NCBI GenBank assembly: GCA_028456385.1
Contig: JALNQF010000098.1
Coordinates: 62,001-126,000 of the forward strand
From: Ophiosphaerella korrae
Taxonomy: Eukaryota; Ascomycota; Dothideomycetes; Pleosporales; Phaeosphaeriaceae
Length of the DNA stretch: 64,000 nucleotides
Direction: 5' to 3'
The first letter of the stretch is position 1; each line of letters starts with the position of its first letter. This document shows, piece after piece, positions 9,877-62,512 of this stretch. A program made the position numbers and the translations under genes. A model generated the notes under the pieces. The model did not search any database. It was not told the origin of the DNA and was given only the letters and a program-made list of their open reading frames with translations.

Positions 9877-12800
9877 CTAATGGGTGCTCTTCATGACGCT
9901 GCGGTAGTACCCTGTGCTCAAGGCACATGTATGTTTGAGTCTTAAATCTTCTGTAAGGGGCAGCTTCATCACTGCCGCCCGGTTGGCACCTTGGGTCTTC
10001 GTCACCAGACCGGCTATGGTTCCTGCAATCTCCATGAGCGCAACACGTTCTTCCAAACCACATCCTGCCAATCGATCTCGCGCCGCAATCTCAAGTGCAC
10101 GTTGTAGCTTGGCCAAGAGTTCTTGGATGCGCAAGTTGAGGTCTTCGTCAACGCGATAGGTCGAGCGCTGGCCGGTGAGATCTAGCAGCTCGATGTAGTC
10201 GAAATAAATTTGACCGCCTTGAGACCATCCTGGCACGGGCTCTTTACGACGCGTGTACGAAGACGATGCGAATGATGCACGGTCACTGGTAGGGCTATTG
10301 GTTGGTGTAGGAAGAAAGCCACCAATAAGCTCGCGGAGAGGATCGTAATCACGCGAGATGATTGCGTCAGGACCAACCTTGCGACAGAGGACGTCGTGAG
10401 CTTCCTCTAGCTCCTCAGCCTTAATGAGATGTGTAGCCTGGCTCAGGGCATCACCTTCGGATTTCGCCTGGAGTGCCGCGGCGGCATGGAGCCATGTTGC
10501 TGGTACAAGCAAATCTTGTGTCAGGTAAATATATGTCGCGTCAGATTCTTCCAATGAGTAGGTACTAGAGAACTGGTTGACGAGTACTTTGATGTAGTGT
10601 TCTCGCATCGTTCGCGAAGACAGATGAGTGTATACCCAAACGGCGGTAGTCCAGTGCGTTGTGGTGTGTAGCGAGGCCGCATATGTGAGAGTGATCTTAT
10701 CACCAAGTTCAACTAGCGGATTCTCTGCTTGCGAGTCTTTATCAAAATGGGAGGCGGTCGACGACTGGAGTGACGACCGAAATTGCGCGTCGTTCTCCCC
10801 GCGAACGGTTGGCATACCTACTTTACGCTCATCTACTTCAGCCTGATCATCCAGTCGCGACTTGAAGAGTTGGAATAATTGGAAAGCCAGACGAGCGTTC
10901 AGGGGATGGCCAGATATGTTTTCGGGTGATAAAACATCTTCAATGTTTGCATCCAACTCCAGTTTCGACGATGCGTAGAGTTTCAAGATGCCCCACAGCA
11001 AATCTTCGCGATCCTCGGCATGCGGATCGTCCCAGGTCAAGTTGTCTACACCTGTCTCTACGAACCACGGCACAGGCTTGACGTCCTCTAGGCCATCTCT
11101 AATGGCATCTGCGAATTGAGCTACAGCCCACTCAATGGATTCGTTGTTCATGATGCCGTACCAGAGCCTGAGCCCAAATGCACGTCGCCAATCGAGCGCA
11201 AAGCGACTGGAGATTCCGAAGGTGGATGCGTTGTTCTCGCGACCGGACCCAGATTTGCCTTGTGACTGTGCACAGTTGCCGGAGAGCAACTCGTATAGAG
11301 CGCGATGCGAATCCTCCATCTCTGAGAGCACATCTAAGCGTCGCCACTCTTCAATCTGTACAACGAGGCTCTGGCGCATGATGGCATCACCGCCAATTTG
11401 AGCAACCATAGTTGCTAATCGTAGATTCAAACCGGAAAGAAGGGAATGACAGGCATCCGCAACATTGTTACAACTTAGATGCGCAATAGCTTTTTCTTCC
11501 GGCGAGGCGGCGTCTTGGACATGTGCCTGTGCATCATCCCAAACAAGCAATTTCCAGAATTCCGACAGCTTCTCTTTCCTGTAAAGCTTGGCGTGAGCCT
11601 GATCCACGCCATTTGGAATTTTGTCAGCCTCATCGAAGAGGAGAGAAAGCAATTGCCAAGCATGTTGCTCATGTATGCCGGCCGCTGTGTCAATGGAAAC
11701 AGCTTTAGCCATCTCAGAGAACTCAATGGGATCAGGATCAGTCTTCAAAACCGCACGAGGTACACCCTCGGCCATAGAGATCTTGGTGTATTGCTTCTGG
11801 AGGGTCAAAGTTGCTGGCGCAGCCTGCTAGGGTTAGGAAACTGTACTGTTCTAGAGAATGCCTAAACTTACATCATCAAAGCTAGGCATCTGTGTGAAGC
11901 GAATATCTTTTGTGGCACCAACGAGCGGCTCTTGGACAGTTGGGTAGATGCCACCTTCAAGGGCGGCTGTGCCTTTGCTACCATAGATGAGAACACCATT
12001 CTCACTGAAGTGGGGCTTGCTACAGCTATGAAAGTCCTTGTCAGGACCGCCGAGTTCGTTGAGGTCGTCTGCAGTTTTGGGTCGTTTCGAATAGGGTAAC
12101 TAGAGACAAGAGTTTCAGCAATCTTGTCCCATATCAATTTGTGGCTACATACATGGGCGAGCAAAGCTCGGAGCGTCAATCTATGTTTGAGAACCTGTAA
12201 GGAAACCCACCAAAGATTGCGCCAAACCCTAAGAAATCGCTAAAAGGAAAAGGGGAAGTCAAACCTCAATACCGCCACCCATGCGCTTTGGAAGCTTCTG
12301 CGTCTCCGCCTCACCGAAAAGAGATTCCATCAAATCCATAGCAGTCGTGAAGTTGCGACCATTGACTGACTGTGACATGTTTGCAACGGGGCCATTGTGC
12401 TCTCGAAGAGCGTTGCCCTGGCTCTCACGTAGAGCTTGTCGATCCTGCTTCTTGGGGCTAATCGTACGTTGAAGCTGGTTGGCCCAATCATCATCGAAGA
12501 TAGGCTGAAGGCCCTTTCCAGGTGTCCCAAAACCTGGCCTCAGAACCTGGCTAGCCTTGAGAATGGACTTTGGTTTCAAAGAACTCTTGAGCAAGTCCGA
12601 GTCCTTGGCGGTTGCTTGCTCCGTGGTCTGAAATGGCGAAGACGCAGGATCCGCCATATCCTGCTCTCCAGCCACTTCTGATTCGCCATACCTAGAATAG
12701 TCACCATCCTGCTGACCATTAAGCGAACCCACGGAGCGCTGCCCTAAAAAAGACTGGCCATGAGTATCCTCCATCTCTTCGTCTTCCTCGTAAGCAACTT

Positions 12801-60822: not shown

Positions 60823-60858
60823 GGCCTGATGGTCTAGTGGTATGATTCCTGCTTTGGG

Positions 60859-60886
60859 TTCCACGTCTTCGGATAAATGCCTATTC
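60859..60886 (+). other. Canonical tRNA intron (between nt 37 and 38)
   Basis: 28 nt directly after G37 and before T38. It starts TTCCAC, and its CCA could pair with the TGG anticodon, as in ordinary nuclear tRNA introns cut by the tRNA splicing endonuclease. Confidence 0.85.
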
Positions 60887-60903
60887 TGCAGGAGGCCCCG
60901 GGT

Positions 60904-60955
60904 GTAAGTTGCACTCAAAATGATTCGCTAAGAATGGTTTCTAACAATCATACAG
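60904..60955 (+). other. Spliceosomal-type intron in tRNA T-loop
   Basis: 52 nt with GTAAGT at the 5' end, CTAAC branch-like motif at 60941-60945 and ACAG at the 3' end, 10 nt after the motif. Length and signals equal those of mRNA introns in this window (mostly 47-81 nt). It lies between T54 and T55 of the tRNA, so it cuts the B box (GGTTCGAATCC) in two. No tRNA-type splice structure is obvious by eye. Confidence 0.85.
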
Positions 60956-60982
60956 TCGAATCCCGGTCAGGCCCCATCTCTC

Positions 60983-61001
60983 TTTTTGCTTTTTTTTTTT
61001 T
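60983..61001 (+). terminator. Pol III terminator T-runs
   Basis: T5 then T12, 9-27 bp after the tRNA end. This is the expected RNA polymerase III stop signal. Confidence 0.85.
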
Positions 61002-61928: not shown

Positions 61929-61937
61929 AAAAAAAAA
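61929..61937 (-). terminator. Pol III terminator T9 (minus strand)
   Basis: Nine T on the coding strand, about 10 bp after the end of the second tRNA gene. Confidence 0.8.
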
Positions 61938-61982
61938 GGAACTTCTGGGCCGAGCACGGATTTGAACCATGGACCTCCTGCA

Positions 61983-61996
61983 TTTCGATTGTAGAA
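61983..61996 (-). other. Canonical tRNA intron (between nt 37 and 38), 14 nt
   Basis: It begins TTCTAC, similar to TTCCAC in the first tRNA, and lies at the same position. The CTA can pair with the anticodon TGG by one wobble. Confidence 0.8.
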
Positions 61997-61999
61997 CCC

Positions 62000-62049
62000 C
62001 TATGTTGGTTAGACAGTGTGCCTTGAGTGTAGTGGTTGATATGACTTAC
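62000..62049 (-). other. Spliceosomal-type intron splitting the anticodon
   Basis: 50 nt beginning GTAAGT and ending CATAG, with CTAAC 8 nt ahead of the final AG. It sits between T34 and G35 of the anticodon. The unspliced gene would not encode Pro. Confidence 0.85.
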
Positions 62050-62082
62050 AAAGCAGGAATCATACGACTAGACCACACGGCC

Positions 62083-62512
62083 GGTGTTACTTGATAAATT
62101 AGGAATCAATTATTTGATATATATAATACATGATAATTAAGAGTGAATAAAGAGAATAAAAAGGATTGTGGGCGTGATTGTACGAAGCGGGGCGGTGTGG
62201 AGACAGCGCAGAAACCGCGTTTGCAAACGCGGTGGTCTAAACGAACGAGGAACTGAACACTAAATTTGCTCAGAGTAGAGCGGACGAACTTCAAGCACAA
62301 CCGTTTGCTCTTGATATCAAGTTTGATTGGTAATAGCGAGAATGAAAGTCGTCATTGAGAGGTATCATATCCATCCATACCTGCCCACCAAACTCCAAAT
62401 ACACAAAACCAAACGTGCATAATCACATACAATCCAACCTGACCACTCAGAGGTCTACGCAGATACCTTTGCGTACGCAAACCCTCGCTATGTGCTCATC
62501 AAACATACTCAT
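62083..62512. other. Gene-free region
   Basis: Upstream of the second tRNA and 3' of the right-edge gene. Nothing seen. Confidence 0.4.

Follow-up and report, generated by a model that had tools for sequence, protein, structure and literature searches.

Introns of tRNA genes lie, as a rule, directly after base 37 and are cut out by a protein endonuclease, and spliceosomal introns are a feature of polymerase II transcripts, although exceptions are known, rRNA and U6 among them. A tRNA-Pro(UGG) gene in a stretch of 64,000 nucleotides of the Ophiosphaerella korrae genome (the whole stretch is called the window below) raises the question of how both kinds of splicing could act on the same RNA, given that its anticodon is split by an insert with the ends GT and AG and that an ordinary tRNA intron follows. 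The answer proposed here, which is very likely on the sequence evidence, is that this gene (gene B) belongs to a set of at least 19 nuclear tRNA genes with U2-type spliceosomal introns, and that the spliceosome would process its transcript before the endonuclease does.

The two tRNA-Pro(UGG) genes of the window

Gene B and a second gene for the same tRNA, gene A, are found approximately 1 kb apart (Table 1). Gene B is matched by the Rfam tRNA model RF00005 with 40.2 bits (E 5e-05), in an alignment that leaves out 66 nt of the anticodon region. A preliminary description of this gene placed a 50-nt insert of the form GTAAGT...CTAAC...ATAG at 34/35 and an ordinary intron of 14 nt after nucleotide 37, and both are borne out by the sequence: the insert is present at 62000-62049, where it reads GTAAGT...GTCTAACCAACATAG, its excision joins TTT to GGG, and the removal of both introns leaves the described Pro tRNA of 72 nt with the anticodon UGG. 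The boundary of the insert is ambiguous by one base on sequence alone, as one G fits on either side, and it has been set at 34|35 because the GT-AG rule selects this position.

Table 1. Positions of the features of the two tRNA-Pro(UGG) genes, counted from the first base of the window
Feature	Position	Strand	Basis or remark
tRNA-Pro(UGG) gene A	60823..60974	+	152 nt; D-arm pattern search, layout
Gene A ordinary tRNA intron, 28 nt, after base 37	60859..60886	+	layout, ARAGORN
Gene A GT-AG insert, 52 nt, T loop between T54 and T55	60904..60955	+	GTAAGT, TTCTAAC, ACAG
Run of 5 T downstream of gene A	60983..60987	+	sequence
Gene A run of 12 T, downstream, likely terminator	60990..61001	+	sequence
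Gene B run of 9 T, downstream, likely RNA polymerase III terminator	61929..61937	-	sequence
tRNA-Pro(UGG) gene B	61947..62082	-	136 nt between mature ends; RF00005 40.2 bits, sequence, layout
Gene B 3' exon, bases 38-73	61947..61982	-	layout
Gene B ordinary tRNA intron, 14 nt, after base 37	61983..61996	-	sequence TTCTACAATCGAAA
Gene B middle exon GGG, 3 nt, bases 35-37	61997..61999	-	completes anticodon; sequence
Gene B GT-AG insert, 50 nt, between bases 34 and 35	62000..62049	-	5' GTAAGT, branch site GTCTAAC, 3' ATAG
Gene B 5' exon, bases 1-34	62050..62082	-	C replaces G18
Gene B TATA-like stretch, ~40 bases upstream	62117..62125	-	sequence

The anticodon UGG depends on the ordinary intron being set after base 37, and ARAGORN, which places this intron differently, for that reason calls it Leu(taa) whether the insert is present or removed. 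Another reading, which concerns gene B alone, assumes a single ordinary intron of 64 nt after base 37, and thus the anticodon UGU (Thr) in a Pro-like body. When single deletions are compared by the tRNA structure that they leave, those of 64 nt over both introns score 23.1 and the GT-AG deletion 22.8, and ARAGORN (introns of up to 200 nt) also proposes one intron of 64 nt, but with the anticodon taa. The removal of the GT-AG insert, however, restores, across the junction, 22 consecutive nt that are the same in gene A, the body of the gene is like that of Pro genes and the insert shows the same signals as the 19 others, and a single long intron is considered extremely unlikely.

Once spliced in silico, gene B has paired acceptor, anticodon and T stems, except for a U-U at 6:67, and both the A box and the B box are present by sequence, in addition to the terminator of nine T. 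Position 18 is C, as opposed to the G18 of the neighbouring Pro gene and of both Pro(AGG) genes, and the conserved G18-G19 of the D loop is lacking. The preliminary description had named mismatches in the acceptor stem and the D loop as the marks of a dead copy. The acceptor and T stems do pair, apart from the U-U, and of the 72 positions at which genes A and B can be compared 13 differ, with paired changes at 5:68, 7:66, 50:64 and 51:63, which speaks against a dead copy; the change in the D loop speaks for it. Given the C in place of G18 and the U-U at 6:67, gene B is possibly a weak copy, or one in decay.

The insert of gene A splits the B box. In its unspliced form this gene is missed by both Rfam and ARAGORN, and when spliced in silico it is recognized by ARAGORN as Pro(tgg). 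Its insert is the sole best among 3841 single deletions in the structure-only search, so that its boundaries are unique. With the B box cut, gene A would presumably need its TATA-like element or a weak box to be transcribed. The mature Pro sequence of 72 nt, used as a query, matched only gene B, and the other Pro genes were found instead by a pattern for the D arm.

GT-AG inserts in nuclear tRNA genes of the genome

The genome to which the window belongs was surveyed (63.0 Mb in 974 contigs), and among the 58 nuclear tRNA genes seen at least 19, of the isotypes Pro, Lys, His, Glu, Asp, Leu, Gly and Ile, carry a total of 20 GT-AG inserts. Besides genes A and B, the set comprises a Lys(UUU) gene with an insert in the D loop at 14|15; two His(GUG) genes, on contigs C135 and C279 (loci L085 and L086), each with an insert in the T loop, the C279 copy having an extra one at 25|26; and genes for Glu(CUC) (three), Asp(GUC) (three), Leu(CAA), Leu(AAG) (two), Leu(UAA), Leu(UAG), Gly(GCC) (two) and Ile(UAU). 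The sites, assigned by hand, are 58|59 for 13 inserts, 53|54 for two, and 54|55, 34|35, 14|15, 25|26 and the variable arm for one each. None of the 20 lies after base 37, the place of the ordinary intron in genes A and B and in many other tRNA genes of this genome. The remaining 39 nuclear genes have no GT-AG insert (a hand count in which some isotypes, such as those of L036, L046 and L058, are assigned against ARAGORN).

The way in which the genes were found determines how these numbers should be read. Eleven of the 19 genes, with 12 inserts, come from searches that did not ask for splice signals (gene B itself, the Rfam search, the D-arm patterns and a B-box pattern), and for this reason their signals constitute an independent result; the other eight were found by a pattern that contains splice signals, which are therefore not independent evidence in those genes, and the proportion of 19 in 58 should not be taken as an unbiased rate. 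The census is also incomplete, as only the best candidates were scored, and Gln and Phe genes of 50-56 bits, for example, were missing from the first list.

Several groups of matches were left out of the count of 19 in 58. Contig C92 contributed nineteen such matches and C2 one, all taken as mitochondrial or of mitochondrial origin; C92 (88 kb, with four Val copies) is probably the mitochondrial genome, and the Val tRNA on C2 (L004, G000:C2:113942) is similar to those of C92. Also left out were five AT-rich tRNA-like loci, some of them alike (L037, L038, L050, L052 and L083, on C35, C171, C477, C656 and C769), which are perhaps a tRNA-derived repeat eroded by C-to-T mutation, a truncated Ala-like stretch (L091) and two unclear loci. 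One of the latter, L084 (G000:C1:74077, the place of L069), is a tRNA-like gene with a long insert that has no GT-AG signals, and is read by ARAGORN as Ser(tga) with an intron of 55 nt; the other, L118 (G000:C274:29388), is a short sequence that resembles a tRNA and has a perfect B box, a T run and no recognizable anticodon arm.

All the His and Pro(UGG) genes found carry an insert, in a census that is incomplete and could have missed a copy without one. No His gene free of inserts was found with an 18-nt pattern that allowed up to three mismatches, and the four of its 27 inexact matches that have two mismatches, checked by ARAGORN, gave no tRNA. Likewise, no other Pro(UGG) gene and no Pro(CGG) gene was found, with 17 of the 49 one-mismatch near-matches checked: 16 gave no tRNA by ARAGORN, and the match in L099 is not a tRNA gene either. 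Among the 16 D-arm matches with up to two mismatches, eight loci (L060-L062 and L064-L068) gave no tRNA with ARAGORN and lack a B box in their vicinity.

Most of these genes escape the usual tools. When introns of up to 60 nt are allowed, ARAGORN recognizes none of the 19 genes with the insert and all 19 without it, as well as all 26 loci that have no GT-AG insert; when up to 200 nt are allowed, it reports two of the 19 insert-bearing forms, one being gene B, read as Leu(taa), and the other L120, read as Leu(caa). In spliced form 17 of the 19 give the assigned anticodon, and the exceptions are gene B, again Leu(taa), and Leu(CAA), called Val(cac) because ARAGORN places the ordinary intron elsewhere. 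Rfam at its curated threshold finds three of the 19 (gene B, L051 and L120). It also misses four genes that have no GT-AG insert (L053, L054, L055 and L121), so that a miss by Rfam is no proof of an insert.

A test that takes no account of splice signals leads, for most of the inserts, to the same boundaries. In the structure-only search, which covers all single deletions of 30-75 nt, the GT-AG deletion is first or tied first for 18 of the 20 inserts, although for Leu(CAA) it ties with 229 others (230-fold) and the test says nothing on that gene. The two exceptions, in which another deletion scores slightly above the GT-AG one, are gene B (the 64-nt deletion over both introns) and the D-arm insert of the His gene L086 (a deletion of 67 nt). 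The latter case is settled by a natural pair, since the C135 copy does not have the D-arm insert of the C279 copy and the two are identical after its exact removal.

Splice signals and signs of function

All 20 inserts are 48-54 nt long, begin with GTANGY, and thus agree with the 5' consensus GTRNGY, contain CTRAY and end in YAG. The distance from the branch-site A of CTRAY to the 3' end is 9-14 nt in 19 inserts and 24 nt in one. A rule built on these features (GTANGY, CTRAY at 8-25 nt and a final AG), which was written after the inserts had been seen, is passed by two of 400,000 random window segments of equal lengths. A second pattern, GTAAGTN{20,50}CTAACN{4,18}YAG, has four matches at three places in the 64-kb window: two of the places are the inserts of both Pro genes, and the third, 11824-11871, borders an open reading frame; in dinucleotide shuffles the same pattern has on average 0.13 matches and none of 100 shuffles reaches four. 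In the genome, the T-loop pattern GGTTCRAGTANGTN{20,45}CTAAY, which itself asks for splice signals, has 13 matches, 11 of them in tRNA genes, compared to one for the reversed control. Three motif matches in the genome (L126, L130 and L133) were rejected, as their flanks rule out tRNA genes. The T-loop pattern has no match in viral contigs, and its one match in bacterial and archaeal contigs, in a Polynucleobacter MAG, has no tRNA-like surroundings and was taken as chance.

The lengths of the inserts fall in a range similar to that of likely protein-gene introns between open frames of the window (47, 48, 52 and 53 nt), which were selected visually out of 40 candidates, certainly including spurious ones, offered by a finder that itself demands GT-AG and a branch site. 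The intron of 47 nt sits in a gene that we take, by eye, to be NADH dehydrogenase flavoprotein 1, and that of 48 nt opens a Nup96 frame. Among the named hits listed for it, the Nup96 protein is most similar to those of Neocucurbitaria cava (76%), Epicoccum nigrum (69%) and Lindgomyces ingoldianus (65%), all members of Pleosporales, in keeping with an origin in this order or a close relation of it. The spliceosomal-type reading of the gene B insert, put forward in the preliminary description, is thus well supported, as the same class of intron is found in 19 tRNA genes and resembles the protein-gene introns of the window.

A different enzyme has to be considered, since non-canonical tRNA introns are known in archaea (25/26, 53/54), in nucleomorphs (D and T arms) and in Cyanidioschyzon merolae, according to a review (PMC4090602). 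In this case the inserts would be ectopic introns of the archaeal or red-algal type, in which the tRNA splicing endonuclease cuts at bulge-helix-bulge motifs, and two Asp inserts do have three of four central pairs and three of three outer pairs of such a motif. In the strict form of the motif, three of four pairs are reached by three inserts (the two Asp and Leu(UAA)), but the full central helix of 4 bp occurs at none of the 20 junctions, a weak test in that two ordinary introns scored zero and three of four. Moreover, the endonuclease would not require the GTANGY, CTRAY and YAG that all 20 inserts have in common, and its action on them is judged highly unlikely.

The question of whether the interrupted genes work can be approached through their duplicates. 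In seven comparisons of paralogues, the exons together with the ordinary intron are identical at 102/102 (His), 99/99 (Leu), 80/80, 79/80 and 79/80 (Glu), 86/89 (Asp) and 81/86 (Gly) positions, and the differences outside the inserts fall, as judged by eye, in the ordinary intron. The inserts in the same comparisons are between 65% (37/57) and 86% (44/51) identical. A T run is found within 45 nt downstream of all 19 genes and a TATA-like stretch upstream of 16 of them, both as uncontrolled counts. These observations bear on the notion that the genes are pseudogenes hit by insertions, which never yield a tRNA. The loss of G18 in gene B agrees with that notion, but exons that are 100% or nearly identical on either side of diverged inserts, the paired changes between genes A and B, the T runs and TATA-like stretches (with the same reservation) and the fact that no further His gene was found among the matches checked all go against it, and it is regarded as very improbable.

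From the T runs, the TATA-like stretches and the A and B boxes we infer that these genes are transcribed by polymerase III, and the inserts would be U2-type spliceosomal introns within polymerase III tRNA genes, an identity that is drawn, like their splicing, from sequence features.

As for their origin, the interiors of inserts from different isoacceptors reach z above 3 in six of 178 pairs, four of which are His versus Glu. The T-loop insert interiors of His (L085, L086) and Glu (L106, L107, L131) are alike, with z up to 4.9. This likeness hints at one intron having spread between tRNA genes, and is too weak to claim it.

Proposed processing and its relation to known systems

In the processing proposed for gene B, the spliceosome would remove the GT-AG insert first and the tRNA splicing endonuclease would remove the ordinary intron second, because the anticodon stem is predicted to remain unformed until the insert has left: its mean pairing probability in silico rises from 0.02 to 1.0 when the insert is taken out. 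Only this value has been used, as the same calculation put the ordinary intron wrongly in several genes (17 instead of 31 nt in His, for example) and gave D-stem values near zero throughout. The order, which the preliminary description had put forward, can be considered a reasonable inference. In yeast, the tRNA splicing endonuclease is found outside the nucleus, on mitochondria, and such a location would favour the same order. At the most common site, 58|59, an insert would be tolerated in that the GGTTCRA of the B box stays intact, and this sparing may explain why the site is a hot spot of the T loop.

The GT-AG inserts differ from the ordinary eukaryotic tRNA intron, found after base 37, in both site and signals. 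Extra tRNA introns off the usual site, in the D and T arms and sometimes several per gene, are shared with C. merolae, with the nucleomorphs of cryptophytes and chlorarachniophytes and with archaea; in archaea and C. merolae, unlike here, they rest on the bulge-helix-bulge and the endonuclease, and in Guillardia they measure 3-24 nt and their removal is not understood, as stated in the review (PMC4090602). The string "spliceosom" is absent from the text of that review.

Other non-coding RNAs offer a likeness as well. The spliceosomal introns of lichen rDNA are reportedly the subject of a study by Bhattacharya et al. from the year 2000. In lichen-forming ascomycetes, according to a later source, the nuclear rDNA contains short spliceosomal introns (57 bp in one that was tested), and yeast spliced a lichen intron from rRNA (PMC8527467). 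Both there and here, a short intron of spliceosomal type interrupts a non-coding RNA that is not a product of polymerase II; the lichen case differs in that the rRNA is made by polymerase I, that group I introns occur as well and that no tRNA-type splicing acts on the same RNA (PMC8527467). The U6 snRNA of fission yeast likewise has an mRNA-type intron in a polymerase III transcript, explained by reverse splicing near the catalytic nucleotides; it differs in being a component of the spliceosome and a single gene, as opposed to the many tRNA isotypes described here (PMC10484740).

The sole U6 snRNA gene found in the present genome (G000:C185, 41983-42081) has an intact core and, near its 3' end, a stretch of 53 nt that reads GTTCGT...GCTAAC...ACAG (L135:1576-1628). 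This stretch is followed by ATCAAAGAGAAGCTACCA, which is similar to the yeast U6 tail, and a long T run appears for the first time beyond ATCAAAGAGAAGCTACCA. The 5' site is off consensus and the Rfam alignment runs through the stretch; U6 may carry a similar intron here.

Spliceosomal introns in nuclear tRNA genes were the object of a full-text literature search, judged by titles and the beginnings of abstracts and conducted mostly without subscription journals and without preprints, in which no report was found. The portions available of four related sources (PMC2586383, PMC11782384, PMC12730881 and PMC10245619) report no such intron either.

If the reading of the inserts as spliceosomal introns is true, the spliceosome can work routinely on very short and highly structured polymerase III transcripts that have neither a cap nor a poly(A) tail, gene B is a case of ordered splicing of one RNA by two enzymes, and the His genes are a natural pair with and without an intron. 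With 13 of the 20 inserts at a single site where the B box is spared, the way in which tRNA genes acquire introns becomes a question of its own. Such genes may also go unnoticed in other fungal genomes, considering that Rfam, at its curated threshold, finds three of the 19 and ARAGORN at most two.

For the organism itself, translation probably depends on the spliceosome: 19 of the 58 tRNA genes seen, including every His and Pro(UGG) gene found, would need the mRNA splicing machinery to act on an RNA polymerase III transcript, and in gene B the spliceosome would assemble the anticodon and gate the ordinary splicing. If the absences noted for His, Pro(UGG) and Pro(CGG) genes hold, CCG and the His codons would, by an argument that rests on wobble, be readable only by means of a spliced tRNA.
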